Below are positions 27,962 through 64,000 of a DNA stretch of 64,000 bases, piece by piece; the first letter of the stretch is position 1; each line of letters starts with the position of its first letter. This DNA comes from Peronospora farinosa (taxonomy: Eukaryota; Oomycota; Peronosporomycetes; Peronosporales; Peronosporaceae). The stretch spans positions 124,001-188,000 of the forward strand of contig CANTFK010000173.1 of NCBI GenBank assembly GCA_947646735.1, read 5' to 3'. Under the pieces are notes generated by a model. That model saw only the letters and a list, made by a program, of their open reading frames with translations, did not search any database and was not told where the DNA came from. A program made the translations under genes and the position numbers.

Positions 27962-28521
27962 CGAGGTGTGTCAACATGTGAAGCCTAGTCCTTCACTCCG
28001 TGCATCATTGCAGCCTCTACCTGTTCCGGTAGAGTGCTGGGAATCCGTATCCATGGACTTCGTCTTTGGGTTTTCCAAAGACGCTCACGGGAATAATGGT
28101 ATTCTCGTGTTTGTAGACAGGTCCAGCAAGATGGTTTATCTTGTTGCTGTACCTGAGTCGATCACAGCAGAGAGCTGTGCTCGAGTGTTTATCGATACAA
28201 TCTTTTCGATTGCACGGTTTACCCCGTGAACTTGTGTCCGATAGGGTCCCCCGGTTCACGGCTGAGTTTTGGCGTTCCGTGTTCCAAACACTTGGAAAAC
28301 GGCTCACAATGTCTACTTCTGACCATCCAGAAACTGATGGTCAGACTGAACGCGCTAATCGCATCCTCGAAGAGATCCTTCGAGGGCACGTCCACTCGTT
28401 TACGAGTTGGAGTGAGTTCTTTTTGATGATCGAATTCGCCATCAACAACTCCGTGCATGCCTCCACGACGCATACACCGTTCTACGTGAATGGCCTTCGC
28501 CATCCACGGCCCCCGCCTTAG
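27962..28521 (+). pseudogene. Element C integrase catalytic core
   Basis: It starts with the second Cys pair of the zinc finger (EVCQHVKPS). The first catalytic Asp is in SMDFVFG. A frameshift near 28205 changes frame, and the second Asp (SDRVPRF) and the Glu (ETDGQTERANR) follow in the new frame. The core then runs into INNSVHAS and YVNGLRHPR, typical of this lineage. All three catalytic residues are present but not in one frame. Confidence 0.9.
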
Positions 28522-28861
28522 TAGAGGGTGACTCTAATCTAAGAGGGGGGGGGGGAGGACTCGCTCGAGCGAGAACCAATCTGGCTCTTGCTCATCACGC
28601 GACGACGTTATGGTCGACGCGAAAGTAACCGAAGTCGTACCATTCAATTTCGGTGAAGAGGAAGAAAGTAAGAGCGATGGAGCTCTTACTGATAACGTTG
28701 CTGAAGATATCAGCATTGTCCGAGGTATCACAAGTGAGGACAGTAATGTTCTCACTGAATTAGTAACCGATATCTCTGCAGTGCATTCATAATGCACTGC
28801 AGCCAAAAGCAACGAGTCAGCTGAGGATTTCCTGCTGACTCGTGAAGCGGTAGTCCGTTTC
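28522..28861 (+). pseudogene. Element C integrase linker
   Basis: It corresponds to the variable linker between catalytic core and C-terminal domain. An acidic 60-codon frame at 28610-28792 continues in the frame of the next segment and is closed by one stop. A run of ten or more G lies at about 28541-28553. Confidence 0.65.
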
Positions 28862-29233
28862 GTGCAAGACTCCATCGCAGAAGCGGTGGATAAGCAAAAG
28901 CGAAACGCAGACAATAATGGAAGGGCAAATGCTCAGACATTTATTGAAAGTGATTTAGTTTTACTGTTAACAGTAAACCTACCTAAACATGTAGTGACTA
29001 ACGTGGGCAGCAATAAATTGTTGCCCAAGTACATCGGCCCGTTTCGTGTATTGCGCCGCCTAGGCAACGCATACACGATCGAGTTGTCACGCAGGATGCG
29101 TACGCATCCTACGTTTTACGTGGGACGTCTTCGTCCTCACGTTCAGTACGCGGCTTCTTTGAACGACGAAGCTAGTCACCACGCTCAAGAATCCCCTTCA
29201 GATTCTTGTTGTCACGAACCAGATTCGATGTAG
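28862..29233 (+). pseudogene. Element C integrase C-terminal domain
   Basis: It has DKQKRNADNNGRAN, YIGPFRVLRRLGNAY (the GPF motif) and THPTFYVGRLRPH, matching elements D and E. It ends at a TAG, and the chromodomain follows in another frame that starts in this region. Confidence 0.85.
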
Positions 29234-29770
29234 AGATGAGATCGTCCCATGATGTTGGACGATCTCCTGACGAGCTGTCTCCAGCTCGTTACTTGGATAA
29301 TGAAGTCGCCGTTCATTCTCCAATAGTGCGACAGAATTGTTTGCCCGAGACTTCTCATAGTCAAACCCAAGCTGTCGCACAATGTCCTCTAAGCGGCGAC
29401 GCTTATCCCGTTCGTGACCAACATCACAACGTAGCTCACGATTTACACGGGCAAACCCGTCTAACTCAGCAGCCAAGTCCGATGAAAGAATCGGACAGGG
29501 TTTTCCCTCCACTACCGCATCCGCTGGTGGACTCTCATGGTAGGAAGCGCTTTCTCGTGGAACGCTTGCTAGATCACCGTGACGTGAAAAAACGTCGGAC
29601 GGGTTATCTCGTACGGTGGCGTGGCTATCCGCCCTCGGTGGATAGCTGGGAATCTCGGGCCCAACTGATGGCCGACGTTTCCGGCCTTGTCGAACAGTAC
29701 GACAAGGGGCACCCGATGGTGAAGGACCATCGGAAAACGAGCGCCCAGCGCGTTCGTAAAGGGATTGCAA
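29198..29770 (-). CDS. Element C opposite-strand ORF with coiled coil
   Basis: 190 codons opposite the chromodomain and its linker. Residues about 98-185 are Glu/Arg/Leu-rich with heptad-like spacing (RLEDIVRQL, NELETARQEIV) and look like a coiled coil; the N-terminal half is Pro/Ser/Arg-rich. Layout and character match the opposite-strand ORFs of D (36133-37519) and E (49767-51050), with the coil always antisense to the linker before the chromodomain. It may continue upstream in broken frames to about 29934. No known family. Confidence 0.55.
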   Translation of the reverse strand: MQSLYERAGRSFSDGPSPSGAPCRTVRQGRKRRPSVGPEIPSYPPRADSHATVRDNPSDVFSRHGDLASVPRESASYHESPPADAVVEGKPCPILSSDLAAELDGFARVNRELRCDVGHERDKRRRLEDIVRQLGFDYEKSRANNSVALLENERRLHYPSNELETARQEIVQHHGTISSLHRIWFVTTRI

Positions 29771-29856
29771 GTAGCAATCCCTTCACGCATCTCAGAAGAG
29801 ATGCGAGCCCTCCACCAGGGCTCAGTAAGGAGGTACGCCTCCTTAGGCGCTCTTGA
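29206..29856 (+). CDS. Element C chromodomain
   Basis: 217-codon frame. The chromodomain is at about residues 114-168 (FLVERLLDHRDVKKRR, YLVRWRGYPPSVDSWE). Before it lies the linker whose other strand encodes a coiled coil; after it lies a basic tail. It should be fused to the integrase, but a stop and frame change separate them. The tail is the densest run of inverted repeats seen: five consecutive hairpins in 29759-29845. Confidence 0.8.
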   Translation: MLSRTRFDVEMRSSHDVGRSPDELSPARYLDNEVAVHSPIVRQNCLPETSHSQTQAVAQCPLSGDAYPVRDQHHNVAHDLHGQTRLTQQPSPMKESDRVFPPLPHPLVDSHGRKRFLVERLLDHRDVKKRRTGYLVRWRGYPPSVDSWESRAQLMADVSGLVEQYDKGHPMVKDHRKTSAQRVRKGIASSNPFTHLRRDASPPPGLSKEVRLLRRS

Positions 29857-30000
29857 CGAGGTGCTCAGGCACCCCGGGCATGGATCGCTCCAAGAGAGGC
29901 ATAACAGGCCTGCCTCTCTAGATAAGCGGTGCAAACGATAGCATGCACCGGAAGTACTTCGTTTCTCAAACTTATTGCGGCTAGCATAAAGTCTTTAAAA

Positions 30001-30459
30001 TCAAGCCTCTTTTCCAACGTCTAAAACGTTGGTGATCAACGCGTTCCAAGATTGGAGGAACGCGTCAGCCTCAGGCTTCTTGTGAGACCGATGTGGATAT
30101 GTGATCTCTTCTGGATCAACATACCGTTTCAGGCGACCCACGTAAAATACAGGGTGCGTCTTCATATACGGTGGGAGAGTGAGCCTATAATTTAGGTCTC
30201 CAACTTCTTCAACCACTGTAAAGGGCCCACTGAATCGGCGCAATAGCTTAGTAGTACCACCAGGTAGTACAGAAATTGCATGTTTAGGTAGGGTAGCAGT
30301 ACTTAATAGCACTTTGTCCCCCACACTAAAGTGTTCATTGTTTTTGCGACCATGCTGGTCTGCATATTGTTTTTGCTTATCCTGTGCGCTTGCCATCGCG
30401 TCACGGACTTTACGTGTGATGGCTAATCGCTCATACACAAAGTGCTGAGCTTCGCTCAC
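30001..30459 (-). pseudogene. D1 integrase C-terminal domain
   Basis: It contains KQKQYADQHGRKN, the GPF motif in RRFSGPFTVVEE, and THPVFYVGRLKRY. After THPHRS-equivalent sequence at about 30085 it departs from D2 and D3 and ends in 28 unrelated residues, so the 3' end of D1 is replaced by other DNA, probably part of element C. Confidence 0.85.
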
Positions 30460-30516
30460 GCTTTTAGTATCCAGCTCGCCAATGAAGCCTCCAAGAGGTC
30501 AACGCTGTTGATAACA

Positions 30517-31410
30517 CTATAGTGTCATCATCAAGGAGCACTGGCATTTCTTGCCGTGCCTCCTCTGTGATGACGTGACCACTGCTAAATTAGCAGTGTC
30601 ACTAGGGCAACCTTGGCCCTCTTCGGCATTCGCACCGAGCGAAGTGAGGGGCCCTCCCCCACTAAGACTCGGGCTGCGTACAAACGAGACTGGCGTTCGA
30701 GGATGACGCAGTCCGTTAATGTAAAACGGTGTTTCACCCGTACTGGCGTGAACACTATTATTAATAGCGAACTCCGCGAATAATAATTGCTTGCTCCATT
30801 CTTCGGGAGTCGATACTGTACGCAATACATCCGCCACGACTCGATTGGCCCGTTATTTTTGGCCATCGGTCTGGGGATGATCAGCGGTTGACATGTGGAG
30901 TTCGATACCCAGCAACTCAAACACATGACGCCAAAAACCCGACGTAAAACGCGGATCCTGGTCCGATACTATGGACTCGGTTATCTCGTGTAGTCGATAC
31001 ACGTGATCCAGAAACAAGAGGGTAGCCTCTTTTCCTGAGATCTTGGTGCTACATGGTGCTAAATGCACCATCTTGCTTAGTCTGTCTACAAAGACGACGA
31101 GCCCCGTCCCGCCTTTATGGTCAGGCGGTAAGCCAAACATGAAGTCCAAACTGACCGACTTCCAACATTCAGTTGGAATCGGCAGTGGCTTCAGTGGCGC
31201 ACTGCTAGAAGGTGCAGGCTTTATGCGCTGGCACTCTTCACAAGAGCGAATATAGTTATCCACGCACCGGTATAGTGGGGGCCACCAAAATTCCTCTGAC
31301 ACTCGTAAGAATGTCTTTTCACGGCCCAGATGCTCACTAGATGGCGCATCATGGCACTCGTGAAGTATCATCAGCTTGAGATCTGTGTCATGAGGGACAT
31401 AGATTCTCAA
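30517..31410 (-). pseudogene. D1 integrase core
   Basis: The zinc finger is at the start (HECHDAPSSEHLGREKTF, CEECQRIKP). The first Asp is in SLDFMFG and the second in SDQDPRF. The expected TDGQTER reads TDGQK followed by TAA at about 30853-30855, so the catalytic Glu and frame are lost. The same defect is in D2. Confidence 0.88.
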
Positions 31411-31562
31411 GGGATCACAAGGTGACAGTTGATGCCATAACAGGCCATTACTGTAACTAAAGCGATTTAGTTTCGCTTTGAGGTGCGACGGAAGGGTAGC
31501 TGTTCGTCCACCAAAATGATCCAGCAGCAGGCGACAATGTTCGTCCTGACTGTAACACTCCT

Positions 31563-32365
31563 TTATATCGAAGCCATTGAGCTCGTCACATGGTAGGCCT
31601 TCATGGCTGCCAATGTTGACGACTCACCTTGTGCTTTCGCACGAGACACACTATACTGGTGTCTTGCCTCGAAGTCTAGTCTGCGTGATAACGCGTCAGC
31701 CAAGACATTCGACTTACCTGGCTTATATTCAACTTTGAAGTTAAATCCAGAGAAGAATTTATCCATCATGCCATTTTCGGCGAGAGGTGCGGTGAATTTA
31801 TAGCGGTCCGCAGTGATGCGTGATCTGTATAAACCACAAAAGGTTCAGTGCCCAAGAGGTGCACCCGAAACTTTACAAGGGCATACTTAATTGCAAGCAG
31901 CTCCTTGTCATGCACAGGGTAATTCAGCTCTGCGGCTTTCAAAAGCCAAGAATGATACGAAATGACACGGTCAACGCCGTTGTCATCCTTCTGCATGAGC
32001 GCGCTGCCGATTGCAAAATTGCTTGCATCGTTGACGACGCTTAAGGTCTTATCTGCGTCTGGAAATGCCAAGACCGGTGCCTCTACAAGAAATTGCTTCA
32101 CTAAATTGAACGCATCTTCTTGTTCCTTTGACCAAGTCCATTCTGTATCCTTTTTAAAGAGATCAGACAATGACTTAGTCTGCTCCGCATAATTCTTGCT
32201 GTACTTATGCAAGTAATTAGCGAGCCCAAGGAATTGGCGCAGATCCTTCACATTACGCGTACTGGCCATTCCTTTACAGCCTTTACCTTTTCTGGGTCTG
32301 CTCGTACACCGTGTGCACCTACGATGCAGCCCAGTACAGGTATCTCGGGGACCCCTATTACACAC
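31563..32365 (-). pseudogene. D1 RNase H and RT connection
   Basis: It has VNDASNFAIG where relatives read CDASDFAIG, DKELLAIKYAL, YTDHASLRT, and after a frame break VEYKPGKSNVLADALSRR. The connection segment LGLANYLHKYSKNYAE precedes it. Confidence 0.85.
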
Positions 32366-32489
32366 TTTGCAAGTTCACGTATAATTGGGCGTCACCCAGA
32401 GTCTGCAACACAGCGTCCAAATGACGCTTGTGCGACTCTATCGCGCTCAGACCGTCTTCCGCCCTACTATGCACGAATACATCGTCAAA

Positions 32490-34188
32490 TTAATGGGGCG
32501 CGTAGGCACGGTGCTGACGCATCACGTGAGCAAACACTCGGTTGAATGTTGCTGGAGCATTTTTCAACCCTTGTGGTATCACAAGCCACTCCCATAGCAT
32601 ACCGCTTGGGGTGCTTACTGCCGTCTTGGCTACATCAGTATCTCTCATGAGAACCTGATAGTAGCCATTCTTCAGATCCAGCGCGGAAAAGATAGTTGAC
32701 GTTCCCATGGATTTCAACAAAACATCTTTCCGCGGGATCGGCGTTTGAGCCGGAATGGTGGCCGTGTTAAGCTTATTATAAGCATGAACCACTCGCCATC
32801 CACATGTTGCTTTACGCACACAGGAGGTTGGGCTGAAGTGAGGTGACTTGCTCTCACGTACATGTCCCGCCTTGGCTCGCTTGTTGAAGTACTCATCGAT
32901 GTAATCGACTTGTTCCTTCGACAACGGCCATTGCCTGGTCACACAATACTTGGTGCCAGGTTCCAGGTCAATCTCGTGCCTGATGCCCCTATCGGCCGGT
33001 AGGCAGCTCGGCACTTCTGCTGGAAACACATTACGGTGTTTCCACAGAACATCATAGAACGGGCTGTCCTTCAAGGCTTCCCAGCCTTGAGCAGCGAACC
33101 GTTTCTCTTTGTCGGTCTCCAAGACGCTCTCATCCATTGTGGATGAAGAGCAACAGTCCACCACGTTCTCTTCTGAAACTGGTGCGACTATCTCGTGGAT
33201 CTTTCCTTCCTTTAGTTCGGACAGGAACGGATCCCACGTCATCTCCGAGAGATTTACTATCTCCTCCTCAGATGCCAAGACAAATTTGAGCACCTCAAAT
33301 GAGGATGCCTCCGGCATTTTGTCTTCGACGGCCTCGAACAACTCGTTCGTAGGTCCGTCCTCTTGGACCGAGACTGATCCAAGGGTCACTCGTTTCGACG
33401 TGCCCTTGATCGTCTTAGTTATTCTGGTGCTCGTTCTTCGAGTCACCACGACCTTTGAACTGGAAGAAGGTGTCGTTGCTATCTCAGCTAACGCACTCCT
33501 TCCAACCGCACCAGGTTCTTGGCTCTGTGCCGGTTCTTGTGACGCTTGACTTCCTATCAGTCCACCATCAACTACCACAGGCTCTCGGCTCTGTGCAGGA
33601 CTATTGGACGCATGACTACCTGTCATCGCCCCATTCACTACGCCAGTCCTTTCGACTTGGGTAGGAATATGTGTCACCTGGATTTCCGCCAGTGCACTTC
33701 CAACTACACCACTCTTTTCAAACTGGGTAGTTCCTGGTGTCGATTGACATACCGTCATCGCACCCTCGACTGTGTTGGATACAGCGTCAGCCACATAAGC
33801 CTCTCGCAAGAGCACACCCTTTCCGGTGTCTTGCGTAGAGCTAGCGACTGTGCGTGTACGCCAGTCTATCCATAGTTGGTGTTTAGCCAACCAAGGAATT
33901 CCTAGGATGAGTTCATACGGACTCTCCATACCTAGCACTGTGAGCTTATCTTTACAAAAGAAGTCACTGAAACCGAAGGTGAGTTCAACTTGAACTCCCT
34001 CCGATTCAACGAGCGCGCCGTTCGCTAAACGAACGATCGCCTCTTCTCGCCTGCCATCCTGGTAAATCGACTCCATTTGCCGGAATCTTTTTCAGACCCG
34101 CGAGTTTCGCAAAGTTTTGTGATGCACCCGAATCCACGAGAAGGTTCATCACTTGGTCATAGCCTCGTACCCGAGTGCTATAGACCAA
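32490..34188 (-). pseudogene. D1 protease and reverse transcriptase
   Basis: Protease: LLVDSGASQNF near 34150, then a 528-codon frame from 34076 through the rest of protease (LILGIPWLAKH), a long Ser/Thr-rich linker, and RT fingers and palm (IRHEIDL, SALDLKNGYYQ, QGLKNAPATF). The frame stops exactly where YFDD should stand: a TAA replaces the Tyr codon and FDDVFVHS follows. Both catalytic Asp codons are still present. Confidence 0.88.
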
Positions 34189-34234
34189 AAGGGTTGAGCT
34201 CCGACCTTTCGGGACCTGGTACCCATTTGTTCGA

Positions 34235-35383
34235 TCACTCTGAACTTAGGGGTAGATTCAGAGTCCGCGACAATTGAGCATCCCGCCCCAACTGCTCTCC
34301 CGCATTTCCCGACTTGTCGGGGGTCGAATCTGAATTCGTGCGACGTGCACGATTCTTCGCACCTCCCTTCGGGTTGGGAGACCTTTTGCTGGCTATCTTA
34401 GCACCAGCAGCTACTTTGGCATAGCAGCGAGCCATCATATGGCCTCGCTTGCCGCACTTGTAGCAGACCACGTCTGCACTGCCTAACTCCATAGGAGTGG
34501 TATCAGATCTTTCGGTCGACGGCCTGTAATAGGCTGTCGCCAAGGCGCTGATGTAGGATTGCTCCTCAACTAAGGCAATGTCAATTCCCTCTTCTATCGT
34601 CGCTGGCACCTTTCTAAATAAGGCCTGAAGCTATGGGCCGTGCCTAAGTCCATTCATGAACGTAGCCACCTTGATACGTTCCGGTATCGGTTCCCCATTA
34701 ATGGACGCCGACAGCGAACGCATCTCCTGCACAAATTATTGCAGAGATCGTTTCGCCTGATGCGCTCCAAAGAAGCGCGCCATAAGCAACACTTCGTTGT
34801 TAGGCGGATGATACATGGCGCGAATCTTTATATTTAAGATCGCCCATGATGGAAATGCATCAGCATTAGCCATCAGCGCAGAGTATGCCCACTCTGAAGC
34901 TTTTCCACGCAAGTTGGACATGGCATACGACACCATTCTGGTGTCGTCTTCGATGAGCTGCGCCACTCCACATTGCTTAACTGCTAATAGCCAGTGAACA
35001 ATTGTATGTGGTGTAGTTCCATCGAACTTCGGAGGTTTCATCCGAATGGGCCTCGGTTGAGTAGACCGGACAGAGGGCGTTTCAACAGTTCTGTTGAGCG
35101 CCTCATTACGTGCCTGCTCAAGCCTAAGCTCATCCTGAGTCTTAGTGATGGACTCATCCGTGGCTTGGCTGTTTACCTCGGACGCGTTTCTACGCTGTCC
35201 GGGCACAAACGCCTCAAATTGCTCCAGCTGAGCAACATGTTGCTCAGAAGGACAATGCAAGAGGTTGACCAGGGCATGTTCATCAAGTCTCTGCGCCATA
35301 TGCTCTGCTAACTCCCTATGATGTTGGGAGAGGTGAGGGAAGTCACTCCATTCCATATTAAGGACCCTGTCAACCACACGCAC
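34235..35383 (-). pseudogene. D1 gag
   Basis: Two segments, 35383-34736 and 34609-34235. The first has the capsid-like core (RPIRMKPPKFDG, ASEWAYSALMAN); the second has one zinc knuckle CYKCGKRGHMMARC (CX2CX4HX4C) and a Lys/Arg-rich end. A stop and frame change near 34620-34736 separate them. Confidence 0.85.
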
Positions 35384-35409
35384 GCTCAGAGAGACGGGTC
35401 GTGAGAAGG

Positions 35410-35425
35410 ACTACTAGTGCTACCA
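35410..35425 (-). promoter_or_regulatory. Primer-binding site of element D
   Basis: The plus strand ACTACTAGTGCTACCA lies two bases outside the LTR, ends in CCA like a tRNA, and is identical to the site of element E (56300-56315). It differs from that of A and B. Confidence 0.75.
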
Positions 35426-35427
35426 AG

Positions 35428-36031
35428 TGTAAACGGGCACTTCTACGAAGTTGCCTCGTGGTACTTAGCACACACCTTCAGCATAAGCGAGGAAGCAGTT
35501 AGACCGTCTTACCTTCGCGTGCGAGGGTGGTGAGGAGGTTGGTCGATTGCTTAAGCAGTCGTACCACCAGTTGCCTCTCGCTTAAGTGAGAGTGCAACGA
35601 ACAACTAACAAGTGTTCTACTTACGTCACGCAGAATCTTTCTCAGCTTCTCGTGCGCAGTAGGCAGTATGTAGTAAATTCAAGACTGATTTATATTTAAT
35701 GAATTATAATTAAATATAAACTTAACTACGGATTGGCTATATATATATATATATAGATCGGATACGCGACTCTTTAGAAGCGTATCCTGACGCATGAACT
35801 TAAATATAGACTTAATCTTGCGAATGACGTCCTTCTGAGACGTCGCGATGCCTAGCTTCAACTAGCGTCATCCCTTCTCATGTGAATCCATCAATGGGTA
35901 TCACATTCACGAGGGTGGATCACATTTTTGTATCGCACCCAAGTGACAGGTCAAAAGTAATCATTAATACTTTTAGACCAAACATTAAGTATATTACTTA
36001 ATGTTTGCGTGAAAATAGATGCCCTGTTACA
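35428..36031 (-). repeat. LTR shared by D1 (as 5' LTR) and D2 (as 3' LTR)
   Basis: 604 bp, TGTAAACGGG to CCCTGTTACA on plus. gag of D1 starts on one side and the opposite-strand ORF of D2 on the other, so one LTR serves two partial elements, as expected after LTR-LTR recombination between neighbours. An inverted copy is at 41995-42589. An AT dinucleotide run lies at about 35740-35755. The sequence is full of inverted repeats, e.g. ends of 35759-35788. Confidence 0.88.
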
Positions 36032-36132
36032 CCATCTTCCGTGTTAGAACGATTTTAATTTGTAAAACATCGCCAAGGAGACAGAGAGACTGCGAGCCGT
36101 TACAAACGCGCCGCTTGGTCTACTCAATTCTC

Positions 36133-37519: not shown

Positions 37520-39251
37520 TCGGTCGCGACACTCGACTCACAGTCGACGTCACCATCGGTCTCGTTAGACCGATGTGGATATGTGATCTCTTCTGGATCA
37601 ACATACCGTTTCAGACGACCCACGTAAAATACGGGGTGCGTCTTCATATACGGTGGGAGAGTGAGCCTATAATTTAGGTCTCCAACTTCTTCAACCACTG
37701 TAAAGGGCCCACTGAATCGGCGCAATAGCTTAGTAGTACCACCAGGTAGTACAGAAATTGCATGTTTAGGTAGGGTAGCAGTACTTAATAGCACTTTGTC
37801 CCCCACACTAAAGTGTTCATTGTTTTTGCGACCATGCTGGTCTGCATATTGTTTTTGCTTATCCTGTGCGCTTGCCATCGCGTCACGGACTTTACGTGTG
37901 ATGGCTAATCGCTCATACACAAAGTGCTGAGCTTCGCTCACGCTTTTAGTATCCAGCTCGCCAATGAAGCCTCCAAGAGGTCAACGCTGTTGATAACACT
38001 ATAGTGTCATCATCAAGGAGCACTGGCATTTCTTGCCGTGCCTCCTCTGTGATGACGTGACCACTGCTAAATTAGCAGTGTCACTAGGGCAACCTTGGCC
38101 CTCTTCGGCATTCGCACCGAGCGAAGTGAGGGGCCCTCCCCCACTAAGACTCGGGCTGCGTACAAACGAGACTGGCGTTCGAGGATGACGCAGTCCGTTA
38201 ATGTAAAACGGTGTTTCACCCGTACTGGCGTGAACACTATTATTAATAGCGAACTCCGCGAATAATAATTGCTTGCTCCATTCTTCGGGAGTCGATACTG
38301 TACGCAATACATCCGCCACGACTCGATTGGCCCGTTATTTTTGGCCATCGGTCTGGGGATGATCAGCGGTTGACATGTGGAGTTCGATACCCAGCAACTC
38401 AAACACATGACGCCAAAAACCCGACGTAAAACGCGGATCCTGGTCCGATACTATGGACTCGGTTATCTCGTGTAGTCGATACACGTGATCCAGAAACAAG
38501 AGGGTAGCCTCTTTTCCTGAGATCTTGGTGCTACATGGTGCTAAATGCACCATCTTGCTTAGTCTGTCTACAAAGACGACGAGCCCCGTCCCGCCTTTAT
38601 GGTCAGGCGGTAAGCCAAACATGAAGTCCAAACTGACCGACTTCCAACATTCAGTTGGAATCGGCAGTGGCTTCAGTGGCGCACTGCTAGAAGGTGCAGG
38701 CTTTATGCGCTGGCACTCTTCACAAGAGCGAATATAGTTATCCACGCACCGGTATAGTGGGGGCCACCAAAATTCCTCTGACACTCGTAAGAATGTCTTT
38801 TCACGGCCCAGATGCTCACTAGATGGCGCATCATGGCACTCGTGAAGTATCATCAGCTTGAGATCTGTGTCATGAGGGACATAGATTCTCAAGGGATCAC
38901 AAGGTGACAGTTGATGCCATAACAGGCCATTACTGTAACTAAAGCGATTTAGTTTCGCTTTGAGGTGCGACGGAAGGGTAGCTGTTCGTCCACCAAAATG
39001 ATCCAGCAGCAGGCGACAATGTTCGTCCTGACTGTAACACTCCTTTATATCGAAGCCATTGAGCTCGTCACATGGTAGGCCTTCATGGCTGCCAATGTTG
39101 ACGACTCACCTTGTGCTTTCGCACGAGACACACTATACTGGTGTCTTGCCTCGAAGTCTAGTCTGCGTGATAACGCGTCAGCCAAGACATTCGACTTACC
39201 TGGCTTATATTCAACTTTGAAGTTAAATCCAGAGAAGAATTTATCCATCAT
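37447..39251 (-). pseudogene. D2 integrase and RNase H end
   Basis: Three frames, 37941-37447 (C-terminal domain with GPF), 38892-37999 (zinc finger and core) and 39251-39045 (RNase H end). They are virtually identical to D1, including the TAA at the catalytic Glu (near 38335). The C-terminal part extends 48 residues past the point where D1 is truncated and overlaps the end of the opposite-strand ORF by 73 bp. Confidence 0.88.
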
Positions 39252-39740: not shown

Positions 39741-39745
39741 AGCAA

Positions 39746-41893: not shown

Positions 41894-41994
41894 GAGAATT
41901 GAGTAGACCAAGCGGCGCGTTTGTAACGGCTCGCAGTCTCTCTGTCTCCTTGGCGATGTTTTACAAATTAAAATCGTTCTAACACGGAAGATGG

Positions 41995-49655: not shown

Positions 49656-49668
49656 CCCTCCCCCACCA
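49656..49668 (-). promoter_or_regulatory. Polypurine tract of element E
   Basis: Read on minus it is TGGTGGGGGAGGG directly before the 3' LTR, the expected primer for plus-strand DNA synthesis. Confidence 0.8.
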
Positions 49669-49766
49669 GACTGACGTTCCCATAGAATGTCACTCGACAT
49701 TTTTCCTCTTAGAGGTAGTGCTTTAGCGAACGTTTAAAACCTCACGGTTTGTTCACGGCACACAAC

Positions 49767-53931: not shown

Positions 53932-55503
53932 TCAAATGACCACCATATCGGACAGAGCACCTGCCTTCAAGGCCTGATGAAATTCATCCACAGACATTTC
54001 GCCTAGCTCTAAAAGAGCATTTAATGATGGGAGGGCCTCAAGGTCAACCTCACCATCTACATCACCTGTCACTCCGTTGACCAGGGTGTACAACTGGTCA
54101 TTGACATTACTATGCGATAAAACAGACGCTTTGCGCCTCGCAGCCGCCATCTGGCAACGCTGCCGTCTCATTGACGAGACCGTACTCTTTACAGTACTTG
54201 GGATGTTATCTTCCCCAAGGTCAACAGACCCCTTGTCGTTTACCTGCCCTATGTAAAGGCCGATGTCATTACCGACACCCAATGGGTCACTAGTACCAGT
54301 GACTTCACTAACAAGGTCATTGACCTTCACTCGCTCTATACGAGAGCCGATGTCATTACCGACACCCAGTGGGTCACTAGTACCAGTGACTTCACTAACA
54401 AGGTCATTGATCTTCACTCGCTCTATACGAGAGCCGATGTCATTACCGACATCCAGTGAATCGCATTTCCAGCCAATATCACTAACAAGGTCATCGACCT
54501 TAACTTGCTCTATACGAGAGCCGATGTCATTATCGACATCCAGTGAATCGCATTTACAGCCAATATCACTAACAGTATCACTTAACGGAGTACGTGCCGT
54601 TCCACTAAGTGTCATTGAGCTCTGCTCGACACTATTATTGTTGACATCGGAGTTTATCAACTCAGACACTCCAATGTCCAGCACATTAACTGAATCAGTT
54701 AATGGCTCGCGCCAATAGCACTTTTGTTTTCTAGCGAAGGTGGGTTCATGACTCTCCAAAGCCTCGCTAGGAACATTGCGCGTTGCGCCTAAAGTTTTGG
54801 ATCTCCAATCGATCCACGGCTCATGGCGTTCCAGCCAGGCCATACCGAGAATGAGATCATATCTCGAGTCCAAATCTAGGACAAGACAGCGTTCAACGCT
54901 ATTGAAATCTAAAAATTTCACACCTAAGTTCAACGGAACTTTAGGAACGGTGACACGTACACCAGTCGCGAGACGTACGGTTATACTGTCACCCTCTTGC
55001 GCTTCCAGCGCCTCAGCATACAGCTGACTCCCCTCAAGGGAGCGACGTCGGACATAATTCCCTGACGCCCCTGAGTCAATTAAAATTGACCAGGGTTTCT
55101 CAAAACCCTTAACGGTTGCCGACACAACCAACAAGCCTGGCTTGTAATTTTGTTCTATGGGAGCATCCACAGAACCACCTGGGGCTAAGCCCTGTTTACC
55201 TTTACCTCCTAAAGATTCAACTGAACTTAGTTCTTTCCCAGTAGGGCGCCCCGCGCCTACTGGGAGTTGACGTTTCCCCTGCGGTGCTCGCCTTTTGGCT
55301 AGGAGCAGGGTTTCGGCTTTGCCGATTTGAACGTTGCTTTCGCAACGGACAGCTAGGGCGGAGATGTCTAGTGCTTCCGCACATGTAACATCTACGGATG
55401 TTACCTTGCTGCTCAGCTGCTTGAAGCTCAGCTTCTTCAGCATGGCTGAGGTCCATGGGTTCCGCCCTATTAGAGGTATTTGATTGATACCAGGGCAGAC
55501 CAT
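53932..55503 (-). CDS. Element E protease and linker
   Basis: 523-codon frame, +1 relative to gag and overlapping it by 287 bp, so real coding begins inside that overlap. Protease: [14 protein letters not shown], then [17 protein letters not shown]. The rest is an acidic linker with four copies of a 30-residue repeat. It ends at a TGA (53932-53934) after DMVVI, and RT continues in the same frame. The TGA is either a mutation or a readthrough codon. Confidence 0.9.
54250..54565 (-). repeat. 93-bp tandem repeats in the protease-RT linker of element E
   Basis: Between three and four units code for [21 protein letters not shown] blocks. The first units are almost identical, the outer ones diverged. 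The frame is kept. Each unit contains hairpins such as GTCACTAGTACCAGTGAC and AAGGTCATTGACCTT. Confidence 0.9.
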
Positions 55504-56263
55504 ATCGAGCAGATTTAAAATTAAATTCAGCGTTAAATGCTACGCTTACTGCCTCCTCAAAAGTTGAAGGCTGGACACGGAAAACTTCCGTCCTGGCGAC
55601 CCCAGTGCGAAGTCCCTCCATAAAAATGGTTACTCGGACTTCCTCTGCCAGTGGGTCCTGCTGCATAGCAGCAATGAGAGTTCTCAACTCTTGGACATAG
55701 TCCGACAGTTCTTTCTTACCCTGTCGGGTAGCTAGGAAGCGTGAGCGCACACGATAAGCCTGATTAGGCGGTGCAAACACACAAGTTAATTGCTTTTTAA
55801 GCATCTCCCATGTGGGAAATGCAGCATTTACAGAGACATCGCTCGTTAGAGCCCACTCCCTAGCTCTTCCACCGAGCTTAGAAATGGCCAAGCCAACTCG
55901 TTGCTTATCGGATGCAAGCATGGCGGCATCCATTGCCATTTCAACTTCTCGGATCCAGAGGAGAAGGTTCTCTCCCTCCTTCCCCTCGAAGGTCTTGACA
56001 CTTAAAACAAGTGGACGAGCCTTTGGCTCTGCATCGGGCACAGGTACCGGGATGTACTGTGTAGGCGCTGCTGACGCTGCCTGGTCATGGACCTGCCCGA
56101 GGAGCGTTGCTTCATAACGCATAAAGGCCTCAAGACGAGCATTTAGAACCTCGGGGCCTTGGGCCAAAAGGGCCTCGATTTGATCAGGCCCGACGAACGC
56201 AGATAATTTATCTAAGGCGAGTCGTTGTGCCTCAGAGAGGTGATTTTGATTCTCCATTCTCAC
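55217..56263 (-). CDS. Element E gag
   Basis: 348 codons. A capsid-like helical domain lies in the first 240 residues ([43 protein letters not shown]), then one zinc knuckle [14 protein letters not shown] (CX2CX4HX4C) near 295 and a basic tail. The start is 54 bp from the LTR, behind the PBS. Confidence 0.92.
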
Positions 56264-56299
56264 AGATGGTCAGTCTTTAAAGACTCAGGTGTAGGATTG

Positions 56300-56315
56300 A
56301 CTACTAGTGCTACCA
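56300..56315 (-). promoter_or_regulatory. Primer-binding site of element E
   Basis: ACTACTAGTGCTACCA on plus, two bases from the 5' LTR; identical to D. Confidence 0.8.
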
Positions 56316-56317
56316 AG

Positions 56318-56957
56318 TGTAGCGGAGCTGCACAGCTCTTTAGCCAGAGGAAGACTTTCGGCTGGAAGCCTCTTAGTTCGAGAGAACTAAATAGAGTTAA
56401 GGCTAAAAGCCACTTAGTTCTAAGGAACTAATTAAACGACTGAAAGTAACCCTGTTCTAAGGAACTAGGAGAGAGACTTTAGTCAGTCAAGCAATAAGCT
56501 TAAGGTTCAGAGAACCAACGCACAGGGTGCAAGAACAAGCTAGAAGCTTAGAGGTTCAGAGAACCAACGCACGAAGTGCACAAGAGAACAAGTCAGAACG
56601 ACTTGTGATCTTAAACTCAAAAGGAGAACTGATTTTATTTATGCTTTAAGATTTTATGAATAGTCCTACTCTAAGTACACTACACTAGATTAATTACTAT
56701 AATAGTAATTATAATATGCAGACTTTGCTATTGGACGACGTATCGTCTAAACATCTGTGTATGATGTACTTAGTACAGCGTTATCGATCTATCGAATCCT
56801 AATCGATAAGATACGGTATTACCGAATACCGTATCTTTAACGCTTAGACTTAATACCTCTCTAAAGAGAAGTATCATAATGCATTACATGCAATACAAGG
56901 GGAGTTTAACCGTAAACTCCCGGAAAGACGCTACAACCGTCGTGTAACCCCGTTACA
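56318..56957 (-). repeat. 5' LTR of element E
   Basis: 640 bp, same ends as the 3' copy. Single-base differences were seen near 56712, 56789 and 56847, so insertion was recent. Confidence 0.95.
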
Positions 56958-57501: not shown

Positions 57502-59383
57502 TGTGGCGAAGCGAACGAATGAATTTTGTGATCATGATTTTTGGTTAAGTATGAAATTGTTAAAAATTGATGAATCGCGATCCAGCATTAAAAGTCTCGA
57601 GACGTTACAAATGAAATGTACAACAGTGAATGGTGGTGGTCACAGTATTTTGTTGAATTATCTGCGGCCTAGAACCACGCAACTGCGATCCCCAGTATTT
57701 TTCGATGCCAATCCGCGTGAGCGCGATCGCTAAGATGGAGCATTAGTAAGATTAAGTATGTGGAATACGGTTTGGTGTAAACTACATCACGCCGGAGGAC
57801 TGGAATGTGGTGGACATGAGATATCATGTATGTAGCGGAGCTGCACAGCTCTTTAGCCAGAGGAAGACTTTCGGCTGGAAGCCTCTTAGTTCGAGAGAAC
57901 TAAATAGAGTTAAGGCTAAAAGCCACTTAGTTCTAAGTAACTAATTAAACGACTGAAAGTCACCCTGTTCTAAGGAACGAGAAAAGAGACCTTTAGTCTG
58001 CAAGCAATAAGCTTAAGGTTCGGAGAACCAACGCACAGAGTGCAAGAACAAGCTAGAAGCTTAAATTTTCAGAGAACCAACGCACGAAGTGTACAAGAGA
58101 ACAAGTCAGAATGACTTGTGATCTTAAACTCAAAATGAGAACTGATTGTATTTATGCTTTAAGATTTTATGAATAGTCCTACTCTAAGTACACTACACTA
58201 GATTAATTACTATAATAGTAATTATTATATGCAGACTTTGCTATTGAACGACGTATCGTCTTAACATCTGTGTATGATGTACTTAATGGAGCGTTATCGA
58301 TTTATCGAATCCTAATCGGTAAGATACGGTATTACCGAATACCGTATCTTAACGCTCATACTTAATACCCAAACTAAAGAGAAGTATCACAATGCATTAT
58401 ATGCAATAGAAAGGGGAGTTCAACCGTAAACTTTCGGAATGATGTTACAACCGTCGTGTAACCCCGCTACAATGTAGATGGAACATTTTACATGATTTGG
58501 TGAACTGTGAAGGTGACAAGCCGTGATCCGGCGGACCGCGATCCGATACTAGCTATCAGAACGCGGTCCGATATTAGAATGAGTACCGCAATCCGATAAT
58601 AAAATGAGTATCGCGATACGATACAAATCGATGACCGCGATTCGATACAAATCGAGTACCGCAAATGATAATAAAAAAGTACCGCGATCCGATACTAATA
58701 TCGTATCAAATCCGATCGAGGTAGCAATCCAGATCGCGGCTATATTAAAGTGGGCCACATGAAAAGATCTGATTTTTCCGATAGGTGATACGTGGCAATA
58801 GATCCTGAGCTACAGATAGGCAAGATCATAGGTTTGGTATATGATTAGTTCAACTTAAACAGAGTTTAATTTACTTCAAAAGTAACAAGTGTCAGCTTCT
58901 CCTCCGGGTTAATTTCTATAGGTGCCCGGCGTATCAAGAAACTCGACCCCCCTTGCAGTTGTACGCTTGGATTGTTTGGCCAGGTGCGTCAAGGACTCTC
59001 AAGACACCCTAATTTGCGATTAGATGCAGAGGACTAAGAAGTCCAGATAAAAGATCGCGGGACAGAAGGCAAGCGCATCAAGTATCGACCACTTGGACAA
59101 GGCGATCTCAAGGTAGCTCAGGGCGACCCAAATAGAGCACCCCCAAGAACTACTGCGATCGTGTTAGGAATTTCACTCGATCGCTCCCCACCTTAGCATA
59201 ACATAATCAAGTTCAACATCGACTGAAGTCCACCGAGATGAGTGCAACCTGCCCAACCGACGGGCACAACGTGAGGATGGCTATATACACGGATTCGGAT
59301 TACACCCTCCGTAAGGAGGTGGTGCGGGCGCTAGTGGAGAATCGAGATCACATTAGCAATTTTGTATACTCCACTCAATTACA
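57502..59383 (+). repeat. A-type solo LTR inside the type G LTR
   Basis: It starts TGTGGCGAAGCG and matches the inverse of 10331-13201 at both ends and around 58760-58880. It ends near ATTACA at 59383. The flanks GAAG and GTAG may be a decayed 4-bp duplication. It has only about six units of a GCGATCCGATA repeat (58520-58700), where element A has over 100. Confidence 0.75.
57826..58476 (+). repeat. E-type solo LTR with 5-bp target duplication
   Basis: LTR 57831-58471 (641 bp, TGTAGCGGAG to CCCGCTACA), flanked by ATGTA at 57826-57830 and 58472-58476. It is older than the LTRs of E: many substitutions are visible, for example near 57968-57990. Confidence 0.9.
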
Positions 59384-60363: not shown

Positions 60364-60775
60364 CTAGGTGTACCACATTGATGGGGATGATACTAGGCGC
60401 CATCAAATGACGTCAGTAATTTACGTTGTAAGCGAGCTTATATATATACCAAGCTTGCACGCTGGGATGCGCTTCTACAGAGATGGTATTCATAATTACA
60501 TATTAAACAATCAGTAATTAGAGTTACTTGTAGTAAATTTTAAAAACTTTAAATCAGTTTCAAATTTACTACATCAAATTCATTGCGCAAGGAAAGACCG
60601 GAAACAGCTTAAGTGGCGCAAGTGGGTGCTCGTCTTAAAAATTTGTTGCACGGATCGCTTTAAGCGGCCGACCACCACCACGACACGTGGAGGTAAGACG
60701 GTCTAACCGCTTCCTCACGCTGCTAGAAGGTGTGTCACATGGCAGTTCTTGATACGCCTAATCACACAGAGCAGA
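60364..60775 (+). repeat. Partial 5' LTR of element F
   Basis: It shares with the D LTR the block GGTAAGACGGTCTAAC followed by GCTTCCTC (60692-60720; 42514-42540 in D3), an AT repeat, and the CATTGATGG region. The left end is cut off by the type G LTR and the exact right end is uncertain. Confidence 0.6.
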
Positions 60776-61500
60776 ATGATCAGAAGAAGGAGGACGAAAA
60801 ATCTCGTGTTCGTGCAGATGGGTGTAACTCATGACCATCACTACGTTAGAAGGGTGCGATTACGAATATTTTGGTGGCATCAGCAAAGGCCTTCGTCACT
60901 ACAAAAAAATGCATGGTGGCATCAGCAAAGGCCTACGTCACTAAAAAAATGCATGACGGCCTCCCGACAGGGGCTGTTACCGATGATCGGGCGGACGTTT
61001 ATAATACGAGAATCGAACATCCTAGTGGCGATGGCCCCACCACGAAATAATGATTGTATTAGTAAATATTCTCCGAAGAAGAACGCCAACATTTTATCAT
61101 AAAGTAATAATAAGTTAATGAAATAACAAGATGCCGCCATCTCTGGATGATGTAACAACGTCTTGTTTATTGTTGCAGGAAATGCTTCAGGCGGTCTAAA
61201 AATTCGAATAGCCAATTTAAACGGATCTTGCGGGAGGATGCGAAAGTCGTGTCTACATTTTCGAACGAAACCGGCTCAAAGTAGCGCTCATTTACATCTG
61301 CCGCTATGACCTTCCGACCGAGAATGTCCCAAACATCATCGCAAAGCCATATTTTATGTAACGGGGTGAGCCCGTTACACAATATTGACATTTATATGAA
61401 GCGTCAATTAAAATATTATTATAACTAATAATATTTGACAATATTATCTTTTCTTCTAATATTGTTCCTAGATCTCCTTGAAGTTGGAGATGCCCTCTCA
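60776..61500. other. Leader region of element F without recognisable gene
   Basis: It holds a duplicated 38-bp stretch (GGTGGCATCAGCAAAGGCC, at about 60872 and 60914) and a 23-bp palindrome with LTR-end sequence at 61357-61379. No tRNA-like primer site was found. Short frames look random. Confidence 0.5.
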
Positions 61501-62393
61501 TTGGTTGATGTGGGCCATCATATCACCCAAGGCGCTGACCAATGACCGATGGACACGCGCAAAGAGCCCTTGAAGATTGATGTCTCCAAGTACAAGGCAG
61601 TCGAAAGCGACTCCTTGTTAAGATAGTTCGTCGAGCTCGACGATGCCATTGAGGCTCGCCTCATCGATGACGTTGCGATGAAGGTCAAGTCCGCCATGTC
61701 GAACTTGGCAGGACGTGCCAAAGCTTGGGCCTTAGGGCTCAAACTGCATGACCCATACGTTTTCTCAACGTATGACGTCTTCAAGGCGCAGCTCAAACAC
61801 AAGTTTGAACCGCCTCGCGCCGAATTCAGGGCTCGGGCTGAGATCCTGGATTCGAAACAGGGTAAGCGTGATATACACACCTACGCCCAACACGTACGAT
61901 ACCTCGTTAGCTGTATAGTGCTAAACTCAATCGATGAACACACGCAGGTTATGTGTTCATCAAGGGTCTGACGGACGATCACGTCAAGACCCACCTGTTC
62001 CGCTTGGAACTAGAATCGCTGGATCAAGCGATCTGTGCAGCGGAACAGGAGGACTTTAGCCTACAACAGGCTCACGTCCACTCGGGGTCCTATCGTCCAC
62101 CGAGACGACAGGATGGCGGAGGTCCAGAACCAATGATCCTCTCCTATATAGAGAGCGAGCGACCTCGCTCTCCTGGGTACAAGCGATTGCAAAAGTGCAA
62201 TCGATGTCAGAAGTTGGGCCACTACGCTTATGAGTGTAGTGCCCCACGCCCAGTGTCTCGTAACACTGGGAGTGACGATCGATCGTCTGCCAAGAAGGGC
62301 CAGAGACGTGGGTCCCACGTTGCTGCGAAATCGCAACAACGTGGTGGACCATCAAAAATGGTCGGGGTCAGTAGGGGCGGAGCGCCCTACTGA
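61500..62393 (+). pseudogene. Element F gag
   Basis: Two frames, about 61560-61971 and 61953-62393, with one earlier stop (near 61619). The capsid-like core has LAGRAKAWALGLKL and the end has a knuckle CNRCQKLGHYAYEC (CX2CX4HX4C). It stops after GGAPY, as gag of E does near GAPY. Confidence 0.82.
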
Positions 62394-63142
62394 TCCAGCA
62401 ACGTCAAGAGAGTTCGCGGGACTCTTGACGAAGGTTGCTCCCAACACACAGTCACTGTGTGTTGCCGCTCCCAGTGATGAGGTATCCCTAATCACCTCGA
62501 AAATCGAAGTGACAAAGAACATGTCACTTCGCGCCCTAGCTGATTGTGGGGCTTCGAACAACTTTGTTCGACGCCAATCGCTAGATGATCGTAGGCTCAA
62601 ATATATTGAGCATGAGACCCCTCCAACGAGGATGACGGTGCGCATTGCAACTGGCGCATCCGTAACAGTAAAGAAACGTGTAGTACACTCTTGGAGGCAA
62701 AAAGTACGATGATAATTTCATCGTACTTGATTTGGATGAAAAATTTGATGTCATCCTAGGATTACCATGGCTCAGATGGTATGAGTCATGGGTCAGCTGG
62801 CAGCATCGAACCGTGAAGATGCCTGCCGCTTGTTCATCAGATGGCCATCTGATGAACGTCTTGGAGCTTTCACAAGCGTGTGAATGTACTACGAGTGAGT
62901 GCGATGGCCTCACTTGTGGTTCGGTCGTTAGTACGACTGCACAAGAACTCGGCGTGACAGACAGTCACGCTGTGGAGCAAGCTACCGGCGGCTATGCACA
63001 AGCACAGGCAGCTCCCAAGGTCCACCACTCGAATAAGTCGAGTGGACCGGGACATGAATGCTCGCCTAGAGGACAGCATTCGCCGAAGATTAGACCGGTT
63101 GCCCAGAAGCGGCAACACGTTAGTCCTAGATTAACTGGATAG
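62394..63142 (+). pseudogene. Element F protease
   Basis: The active site reads LADCGASNNF, DCGA instead of DSGA. ASVTVKK follows, then in a new frame VILGLPWLRWYESWVSW. The Ser to Cys change next to the catalytic Asp and the frame break near 62700 are unusual. A linker of low complexity follows. Confidence 0.82.
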
Positions 63143-63280
63143 TTGATCGTAGAGGATCTCGCTGTGGTTGCTCCACCACAGTTAGAGGAAGTCGATGAAA
63201 TAAGTTCCATCGAGCCTGCGGGAATAAGTCCCCAGGAAATAATCACTGAGGGAATAAGTCCCCAGTAGGTAACCGAGACG

Positions 63281-63664
63281 ATGAACGTCTTGGTTAATGA
63301 CGGATCAAACGTAGGCGCTTATACGCTTGATCTGATCGCGATTCCGAAGTTAACTTCGGAGATAACTCAGTTGTCTACGCTAGAACCTAAAAGGTTCTTG
63401 CGTGATCTGCGTAGTGGCAAAGTCAAGCAGATCTGTATGCTCGTCGCAGAGGAAGAGTACATGACTGGCATTCGGTCAGCAACAGTTTTTGCCGAGAACG
63501 AACAGGTTCTCAGCAGCTCATCAATGGACGAGAGTGTCCTTGATGAGAAGACTCGGATTGAACGATATACATCGCAATCCTGGGAGTCACTGAAGTCAAA
63601 TCCTTTGTATAAGGATTTGGTCGAATTCAAGGATGTATTCCCTGAATCCGTTCCGTACGAGTAG
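63281..63664 (+). pseudogene. Element F protease-RT linker
   Basis: 128 codons with SSSSMDESVLDEKTRIERY, which matches D1 (STMDESVLETDKEKRF). It is closed by one TAG (63662-63664), and RT continues in the same frame. Confidence 0.8.
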
Positions 63665-64000
63665 CCTAAGGATAATGGTACTCAACACGAGATCGACTTT
63701 TTTCCTGGCACAAAATATTGTATCATGAAGCAGTGGCCACTGCCTCGGGAACAGGTCGAGGCGATCGAGAAGTTCTTTGCTGATCGCTTAGCAGTGGGCC
63801 ATGTGAGGGAGTCAACTTCACCTCATAGCTCTCCGACCTCCTGTGTACGCAAGGCCACAGGAGGGTGGCGGATAGTGCACGCGATCAATAAGTTAAACGC
63901 TGCAACGATACCGGCACAAACGCCGATACCGAGAAAGGACGTAATCATAGATGGTATGTCTAAGAGTACCATCTATTTCGTCCATGGATCTGATGGATGG
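63665..64000 (+). pseudogene. Element F reverse transcriptase, N-terminal part
   Basis: It contains QHEIDFFPGTKYC, KQWPLPREQVEAIEKFF, SPHSSPTSCVRKATGGWR and IPRKD, the fingers of RT. One extra base near 63972 shifts the frame before the palm. The rest is outside the window. Confidence 0.85.

Follow-up and report, generated by a model that had tools for sequence, protein, structure and literature searches.

Short perfect hairpins are in excess in E-related Ty3/Gypsy elements and may arise through recurrent quasi-palindrome correction

One group of elements in the window analyzed here (the whole stretch of DNA, 64 kb) contains a large excess of short perfect inverted repeats, and this excess is real and includes coding DNA. 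In the sampled genome, it tracks Ty3 elements related to one of them, element E (Tf2-like SH3 and chromodomain). The pattern resembles hairpin-perfecting copying somewhat more than selection for folded RNA, and we tentatively suggest that E-related Ty3/Gypsy elements may gain and keep perfect hairpins through recurrent quasi-palindrome correction during element replication. Elements and hairpins of the window are as follows.

2613..9000, minus strand: element A, hairpin-poor control with matches to RVT_1 and to the integrase zinc-binding domain
13131..14690, plus strand: hairpin-rich fragment with RNase H and integrase zinc-binding matches, DNA similarity of 74% to C/D
20566..26669, minus strand: element B, hairpin-poor control with protease, RVT_1 and RNase H matches plus an additional RVT_3 match
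27962..30077, plus strand: chromodomain-ORF fragment (ORF 29176-29856), with the highest hairpin density
29759..29845, no strand: four perfect hairpins in succession, with arms of 10, 8, 7 and 8, starting at 29759, 29786, 29805 and 29826
30078..36031, minus strand: element C, rich in hairpins; in sense, the 5' end of the LTR is near 36031
35228..35247, no strand: 20-nt palindrome CTGAGCAACATGTTGCTCAG, present in 8 of 8 aligned C-type loci
35979..36007, no strand: LTR hairpin, arms of 13
37560..42589, minus strand: element D, C part 30078-32257 near-copied (98.2%) and joined to the 35428-38273 inverted copy
49017..56957, minus strand: element E, hairpin-rich Ty3 chromovirus-type LTR retrotransposon, 5-bp repeat AGTTC flanking both ends
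49017..49655, minus strand: E 3' LTR, sense start TGTAACGGGGTTACA, a terminal hairpin
49506..49535, no strand: E LTR hairpin, arms of 13, loop of 4
50623..53931, minus strand: E pol ORF, RT, RNase H, integrase, SH3 and chromodomain matches
53932..55539, minus strand: E protease-match ORF (domain match)
56318..56957, minus strand: E 5' LTR, TTGGTAGCACTAGTAGTC downstream in sense
57831..58471, minus strand: extra E-type LTR, ~93% identity to the E LTR
60401..64000, plus strand: element F, truncated where the window ends, with a Ty3-type protease match
62832..62857, no strand: 26-nt palindrome of element F, a perfect inverted repeat

Element E had domain matches to gag, protease, RT, RNase H, integrase, Tf2-1 SH3 and chromodomain; in its pol ORF, RT, RNase H and integrase follow the Ty3/Gypsy chromovirus order, with the chromodomain at the C-terminus. 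Its two LTRs are 99.5% identical, have the ends TGTAAC..CTACA and are bordered, on the two outer sides of the element, by the AGTTC target repeat. The PBS-like stretch TTGGTAGCACTAGTAGTC after the 5' LTR, which C-type copies also have, is a putative tRNA primer binding site. Named protein matches of the pol ORF were from Phytophthora, Peronospora and Globisporangium (among the 120 of 2920 matches listed). Element C is related to E at the DNA level (31679-31941 vs 52434-52697, 73.5%). A chromodomain was not seen in the scanned ORFs of C, D and F. The part of F inside the window showed neither RT nor chromodomain, so any clade assignment of F would be tentative; its zinc-knuckle matches were weak and below the cut-off.

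In region 27962-64000, 26 perfect inverted repeats with arms of at least 10 and loops of up to 10 were counted, compared to 0.37 (maximum 2) in 60 dinucleotide shuffles, although the 26 include repeat copies of single hairpins (e.g., E-type LTRs, 49390/56691/58204) and some AT-only ones. The original prediction had put chance at 0.3 per 30 kb, which was correct, and had claimed at least seven such cases. Arms of at least 8 numbered 81 (6.1 in shuffles), and arms of at least 7 with loops of up to 12 numbered 153 (23.0 in shuffles). All nine hairpin places that had been listed were perfect inverted repeats, several with longer arms than given (14445-14455/14461-14471, 14508-14518/14522-14532 and 49506-49518/49523-49535), and the reported five in a row in 29759-29845 came to four with arms of at least 7. 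Protein-preserving codon shuffles confirmed that hairpins are fitted into codons (43 vs 4.0 in 16 ORF pieces of affected elements), and six other ORFs gave 1 vs 2.4. For single ORFs, arms of at least 8 numbered 8 vs 0.18 in ORF 29176-29856, 3 vs 0.63 in the E pol ORF and 3 vs 0.64 in the E protease-match ORF.

The share of bases in arms of at least 6 was 0.146 in E, 0.144 in C, 0.106 in D, 0.197 in F and 0.238 in the 13 kb piece, compared to 0.029-0.036 after shuffling, and arms covered 26% of bases in 28000-30077. It was low in A (0.043), B (0.044) and the 44-48 kb part (0.047); the absence of an excess in A and B, near their shuffles, was as predicted. The description of whole sequences as tiled held for the high hairpin density and was too strong in extent, as 76-89% of bases of the hairpin-rich elements lie outside arms of at least 6. 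The excess is also patchy: 42590-48990 is at chance (arms of at least 8, 2 vs 1.4), and an excess occurs outside 27962-64000, at 13-15 kb, with 20 vs 4.7 such arms over 1-27961.

Elsewhere in the genome, eight C-type loci, 30 E-type loci and locus L068 were hairpin-rich, and 29 other RT loci (L039-L067) were near chance. So were four of five random stretches (L070-L073); the fifth (L069) also has a chromodomain match, and its strongest excess is in the Tf2/chromodomain part (arms of at least 8, 8 vs 0.43). The assembly contains at least 150 E-like RT matches. A scan of viral and genome contigs with the E RT found no relative from other species.

Positions of LTR hairpins are fixed while both arms change. 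Compensatory changes between related copies were found in 10 pairs, corresponding to 35 cells, whereas slid partners gave 0-3 pairs (0-9 cells); 8 of the 10 doubly changed pairs mark one single subfamily split. For example, the counterpart of the LTR hairpin at 35979..36007 in the other subfamily is altered in both arms (CCCGTTAAGTAT/ATACTTAACGGG). Among 371 evaluated single-copy substitutions in E, arms of at least 8 were created 11 times vs 3.6 expected, in only seven events, and arms of at least 9 were gained 8 times vs 1.7, in only five events. One T.G mismatch in E was repaired to C-G in one copy (L036) and to T-A in another (L025). In two gained stems (L012 and L025) both arms were altered within one copy, and therefore single-arm copying does not explain these stems. 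Single-copy substitutions in C-type LTRs showed no excess of gains of arms of at least 8 (3 vs 2.0) and 21 stem losses vs 20.8 expected; these hairpins decay neutrally by single-copy changes. The control family f1 gave 2 gains vs 2.8 (679 of the first 700 events), but it is a weak control, as two of the 11 loci in it have only ~50% identity and are unrelated. Control family f2 showed 13 apparent gains that were discounted, at least 10 of them being in one locus (L052) with an unrelated flank as its upstream part.

More direct signatures of template switching were only partly present. Multi-base clusters explicable by an inverted copy were slightly in excess of controls overall: 13 vs 7 and 1 in E (of 1693), 14 vs 12 and 4 in the C LTR (of 624), and 3 vs 0 and 0 in the C internal part (of 129). 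One clear fold-back copy, 22 nt long, was seen at locus L081 and is described below. Loop inversions were absent among 493, 183 and 2173 loop differences, and intramolecular fold-back need not produce them. The direction of correction, judged by eye, favored neither arm and was not used as evidence. The loop analysis covered 207 independent hairpins, AT-only ones being excluded; loop lengths were enriched at 0-10 and 12 and near chance from 13 upward. Beyond perfect arms of at least 7, pairing after the mismatch was at chance (23-29%), and only 1 of 227 hairpins had at least 4 more pairs past the first mismatch. Two further observations count against the correction model: stems of at least 10 pairs with one inner mismatch were over-represented (61 vs 7.0), and so were one-base bulges (17 vs about 1.5). 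The frameshift cost of indels is an insufficient reason for the persistence of bulges, because the LTR, which is non-coding, has bulged stems too.

In such correction, a growing DNA end would fold back onto complementary sequence close by, with a loop of at most about 12 nt, copy a few bases and then rejoin the template. Chance short repeats would seed new stems, which would then be perfected, and stems re-perfected after mutation would persist in position while both arms change together. Protein sequence would restrict the sites at which stems may form. Since the excess is restricted, in the sample, to one element group, the agent might be the element's own RT. Correction would be located in the element cycle and would outweigh selection. 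A precedent for creation and maintenance of hairpins by template switching is described in the available part of PMC8794818.

The second possibility of the original prediction, selection for a folded genomic RNA whose hairpins protect, package or regulate element RNA, is disfavored and appears unlikely. It would account for the covariation at fixed LTR positions, the loop peak at 4-5 nt and the local folding energy, which was well under that of dinucleotide shuffles, with mean z values of -1.3 to -3.2 for the elements of the window. However, the antisense strand folds like the sense strand (sense/antisense z, -2.30/-2.34 in C and -2.21/-2.38 in F). G-T and A-C mismatches were also about equally frequent: 37 vs 42 at the outer stem ends in the set of 227 hairpins, 16 vs 18 within stems of at least 10 pairs, and 4 vs 4 in 21 mismatched stems common to at least half of copies. 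"C" in the folding and 227-hairpin sets also takes in 27962-30077, which has a plus-strand ORF; with the two treated separately (stems of at least 10 pairs), the mismatch answer was unchanged. The equal folding of both strands and the similar G-T and A-C counts show that the property being maintained is not wobble pairing in RNA. Double transversions, which do not need a G-U intermediate, made up 5 of the 10 doubly changed LTR pairs, and zero-loop palindromes (14 of 207) and 1-nt loops (12 of 207) exist, which also argues against folded RNA.

Selection is better served by the fate of stems. Substitutions shared by few copies rarely break arms of at least 8 (by subtraction, 6 vs 15.4 in 2-3 copies of the C LTR and 3 vs 7.8 in 2-5 copies of E), whereas C-type LTR singletons show no such scarcity; this scarcity would equally come from purifying selection. 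Divergence was lower in stems than in non-stem positions in 14 of 20 comparisons (10 of 14 LTR and 4 of 6 coding), and structural selection is therefore kept as a candidate. Only in LTR pairs at the greatest distance from each other were the two alike (mean 0.19 vs 0.21, n = 10), and an argument for correction from stems diverging as fast as elsewhere was dropped, as it fails in most comparisons. These data also bear on selection for DNA or single-stranded cDNA structure (cruciforms, stalling sites, chaperone or integrase contacts), in which G-T and A-C would be equally bad. Strand symmetry, exclusively Watson-Crick pairing, depleted shared stem losses and lower stem divergence agree with this explanation, which we consider improbable: a function would be required for dozens of stems that are unrelated to one another and lie in both LTRs and coding DNA, and no loop was preferred among those listed.

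Short-range template switches by host DNA replication might occur genome-wide, the elements merely displaying them. Such mutations are known from genome replication (available parts of PMC8794818 and PMC7202029), and one locus (L081) has a 22-nt exact reverse-complement copy at the LTR terminal hairpin that spans target DNA and LTR; since the copied stretch contains target DNA, this event was post-integration and did not occur in reverse transcription. However, a host-wide process was rejected as the main cause, given the near-chance values of A, B, the 29 other RT loci, L070-L073 and 44-48 kb. The restriction to one element group already weighs against it, as does the loss of C-type LTR stems by single-copy changes at the expected rate, and host replication is thus very improbable. 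Chance, base composition or a low-complexity artefact can practically be dismissed: TA runs account for some zero-loop matches in the C-type LTR, but dinucleotide and codon shuffles refute it and the 207 independent hairpins are left once AT-only ones are removed.

Quasi-palindrome correction thus fits better than RNA selection, and the original two-way interpretation is, as a whole, partly supported. A stronger version, in which the group's elements, through the machinery that replicates them, keep converting their own genome into short perfect palindromes, and copying bias rather than selection shapes LTRs and coding DNA and imitates RNA-structure covariation, is conceivable but rather doubtful. 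Functional RNA is usually recognized by covarying stems. If template-switch bias alone makes and keeps such stems in coding elements, covariation evidence needs a check of strand symmetry (e.g., G-T vs A-C). If true, these elements, for which a single assembly has at least 150 E-like RT matches, would also be a natural experiment on the frequency of fold-back in reverse transcription.

Element E shares its domain set, chromodomain and LTRs with Ty3/Gypsy chromoviruses (Tf2-type) of oomycetes. Some RNA viruses have genome-scale ordered RNA structure, and the excess of folding energy along the element is shared with them; the elements described here differ in being strand-symmetric, without G-U preference, and in having short and perfect stems. 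No account of hairpin tiling in Ty3/Gypsy chromoviruses was found in the literature searched; a term search of PMC5348765, a paper on oomycete retrotransposons, gave 0 hits for hairpin, palindrom and inverted repeat. A cross-genome survey that counts perfect inverted repeats (PMC13155455) mentions, in its available part, TIR DNA transposons and MITEs as the transposable elements showing enrichment, and a term search there gave 0 hits for retrotransposon. Compared with quasi-palindrome and short-range template-switch mutation, the present elements showed no loop inversions. This mutation is known from genome replication and RNA genes, whereas here, in our sample, the pattern occurs in one element group and across coding elements. 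Perfect inverted repeats, mismatch fixing and double changes without a G-U step are likewise features of this mutation in the available parts of PMC8794818, PMC7202029 and PMC7954356.

The hairpin excess is genuine and strong, and within our sample it is specific to one group of elements. The elements and fragments of the 64 kb window (contig positions 124001-188000) that bear on it are as follows:

2613-9000, minus strand: retroelement A, a hairpin-poor control
13131-14690, plus strand: hairpin-rich RNase H/integrase zinc-binding fragment, matching C and D at 74% DNA identity
20566-26669, minus strand: retroelement B, a hairpin-poor control
27962-30077, plus strand: fragment with a chromodomain ORF
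30078-36031, minus strand: hairpin-rich element C
37560-42589, minus strand: hairpin-rich element D
49017-56957, minus strand: hairpin-rich element E, LTRs 99.5% identical, 5-bp AGTTC repeat on both flanks
60401-64000, plus strand: hairpin-rich element F

Element E gave domain matches to gag, protease, RT, RNase H, integrase, a Tf2-1-like SH3 and a chromodomain, and the named relatives of its pol ORF protein among 120 matches listed were from Phytophthora, Peronospora and Globisporangium, which points to an oomycete. C and D partially match E (73% DNA identity over ~250 bases). F, which the window end truncates and which is therefore placed in no clade, matches a Ty3-type protease and, weakly, zinc knuckles. 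RVT_1 and other retroelement domains were found in A and B. C and D are also involved in an inverted duplication (35428-38273 / 42589-39741) with 2.85 kb arms that are 98.3% identical and ~1.5 kb apart. Other repeats include a large tandem array at 11100-13109 (~18 nt units based on GGATCGCG, 78% matches) and two related CCCCGGTA-type tracts (15396-15843 and 27311-27758), which sit inside longer similar stretches (14689-16110 and 26604-27957, 90.6%).

Perfect inverted repeats were present at all nine places named in the original prediction. Between 27962 and 64000, we counted 26 hairpins with arms of at least 10 and loops up to 10 (0.37 in 60 dinucleotide shuffles) and 81 with arms of at least 8 and loops up to 12 (6.1 in such shuffles); the count in 42590-48990 was at chance level by the same kind of control. 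The proposal that hairpins are fitted into codons held when each ORF was shuffled 200 times with its protein and codon usage retained: the affected elements, in 16 ORF pieces, had 43 arms of at least 8 (4.0 expected), and in 10 of these pieces the observed count was reached by at most 5 of 200 shuffles, the remaining 6 having no such arm at all. A and B had been described as free of tiling, and the six control ORFs (two of A, two of B, 16206-18527 and 44756-45832) indeed had 1 arm of at least 8 vs 2.4 expected. The 773-aa frame at 16206-18527 (plus strand) has 30/45-nt coding tandem repeats at 17256-17599 and no Pfam match. The 358-aa frame at 44756-45832 (plus strand), also with no Pfam match, is rich in Ser/Thr in its middle and has a hydrophobic segment close to the C end; from these sequence features it resembles a secreted or membrane protein of the host.

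From the same assembly (46.85 Mb, 274 contigs), 68 loci were fetched by similarity, together with five random 6 kb stretches. Arms of at least 8 numbered 11-22 per 3.3 kb in eight C-type loci, two of them overlapping (0.6-1 shuffled), 8 in locus L068 (1.2), 2-6 in 30 E-type loci (0-1.4) and 0-3 in 29 loci with RVT_1 model matches, L039-L067 (0-1.8), where two of four checked had an endonuclease domain, as in LINEs. Four random stretches (L070-L073) were near chance and the fifth, L069, was rich: 8 vs 0.43 in its Tf2/chromodomain part (4500-6000), 2 vs 0.87 in a copia element (9 vs 3.9 for arms of at least 7) and 2 vs 0.17 in the first 1475 bases, to which no element was assigned. Judging by these locus and random-stretch counts, the excess for the most part tracks a single group of elements.

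In 228 distinct hairpins with arms of at least 7, pairing past the first mismatch was 23-29%, which is chance, and a mismatch followed by at least 4 further pairs, likewise at chance level, occurred in 1 of 227, while one-base bulges followed by at least 4 pairs were in excess (17 vs ~1.5). Such bulges in otherwise perfect stems were seen in L002, L005, L006 and the window elements C, D and E. Enrichment covered loop sizes 0-10 and 12, peaking at 4-5, and those of 13 or more were near chance (207 sequence-independent hairpins); no prominent motif was seen by eye in the loops inspected.

In 28 C-type LTR copies, hairpin positions are fixed and arm sequences vary: AAACATTAAGTA/TACTTAATGTTT in 11 copies and CCCGTTAAGTAT/ATACTTAACGGG in 5, palindromes beginning GATCTTAAAT or GCGAGCTTAAA, stems ATCCAT..ATGGAT or ATACAC..GTGTAT, and, in the distant copy L093, GCAGGCCTAA/TTAGGCCTGC in place of AAAAGTA/TACTTTT. 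On 17 of them, a structure of 16 helices (117 pairs) was 92.6% paired, a figure biased in favor of that structure, which was derived from the same sequences. Compensatory changes were found, with 10 pairs altered on both sides in 35 cells (0-3 pairs and 0-9 cells when partners were slid by 1-3 columns). One of the 10 involves a flanking target DNA base. Eight coincide with a single subfamily split (L075, L076, L077 and L088, or three thereof) and one marks a different group, so the covariation events are few. Against 500 shuffles, the number of such pairs was not unusual (equalled or exceeded in 84) and further pair types were rather few (equalled or exceeded in 478), but no shuffle attained the observed count of doubly changed cells or the covariation score.

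Our best explanation, which we hold tentatively, is that imperfect inverted repeats would be recurrently made perfect as the element replicates (quasi-palindrome correction, i.e. fold-back template switching). Were stems corrected by copying, hairpin gains would be expected among fresh changes. Among single-copy substitutions in E (371 evaluated of 385), eleven gains of arms of at least 8 were found vs 3.6 expected (seven events) and eight of at least 9 vs 1.7 (five events), with 4 losses vs 6.0 (arms of at least 8). Several private gains of E copies lie in or near an 87-nt tandem repeat (54233-54580) within one ORF of the element, where copy lengths also vary. C-type LTRs (25 copies, excluding L080, L086 and L093; 116 changes evaluated) showed no clear excess of single-copy gains of arms of at least 8 (3 vs 2.0) and 21 losses vs 20.8; a weak control family had 2 gains vs 2.8. 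By subtraction, changes shared by 2-3 C-type LTR copies broke 6 stems vs 15.4 expected, and those in 2-5 E copies broke 3 vs 7.8 (arms of at least 8). Thus, C-type single copies decay at chance whereas propagated lineages retain stems, a pattern that correction and selection both predict.

In one C-type copy, L081, there is a 22-base addition, the exact reverse complement of 15 target-DNA bases plus the first 7 LTR bases. It lies where fold-back would be primed by the LTR terminal hairpin TGTAAC..GTTACA. Since the copied stretch includes target DNA, the event postdates integration; it demonstrates that fold-back synthesis can be primed at a site of this kind and does not identify reverse transcriptase as the agent. 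L081 (1-781) is probably a nested insertion; by eye, the flank upstream of its element resembles the leader of its own family. General template-switch signatures were weak. Loop inversions numbered 0 among 493, 183 and 2173 loop differences. An inverted copy accounted for 13 of 1693 clusters in E (7 in reversed and 1 in complemented controls), 14 of 624 in the C-type LTR (12 and 4), several within TA runs, and 3 of 129 in C internal sequence (0 and 0).

Selection would also maintain stems, and stem divergence below that of non-stem positions in 10 of 14 LTR and 4 of 6 coding comparisons leans that way; for the LTR pairs furthest apart, stem and non-stem values were similar (means 0.19 and 0.21, 10 comparisons). 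Selection for a folded RNA is nevertheless unlikely, as G-U is not favored and double transversions, which cannot pass through a G-U intermediate, make up 5 of the 10 doubly changed pairs. Outer helix-end mismatches were G-T in 37 cases and A-C in 42. Stems of at least 10 pairs with one inner mismatch gave G-T 16 (1.0 expected from shuffles), A-C 18 (1.5) and other 27 (4.5), an excess that is partly trivial, because a perfect arm, a mismatch and two chance pairs suffice and related copies are included; the relevant point is the parity of G-T and A-C. In stems of at least 8 pairs, mismatches common to at least half of the copies were G-T 4, A-C 4 and other 13, and those found in no more than 10% of copies 12, 10 and 21, E leaning toward G-T (6 vs 1) and the C-type LTR toward A-C (4 vs 9). 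In these small samples, the G-U preference expected of a sense-RNA-selected fold was absent overall. The two strands gave similar mean folding z-scores (E -1.30/-1.59, C -2.30/-2.34, D -1.79/-1.89, F -2.21/-2.38, the 13131-14690 fragment -3.16/-3.00), controls ranging from -0.44 to +0.26, with L069 (-0.7/-0.8) and L068 (-0.8/-0.6) intermediate. Structural selection at the DNA level, to which the same stem divergence lends weight, is about as improbable. The wobble and double-transversion results favor recurrent correction.

Among the literature matches listed, titles and abstract beginnings contained no account of hairpin-tiled LTR retrotransposons. Control element B has, at 20566-24225 (minus strand), an extra RVT_3 match located after the usual RNase H, which recalls the oomycete elements with an archaeal-type RNase H described in PMC5348765.
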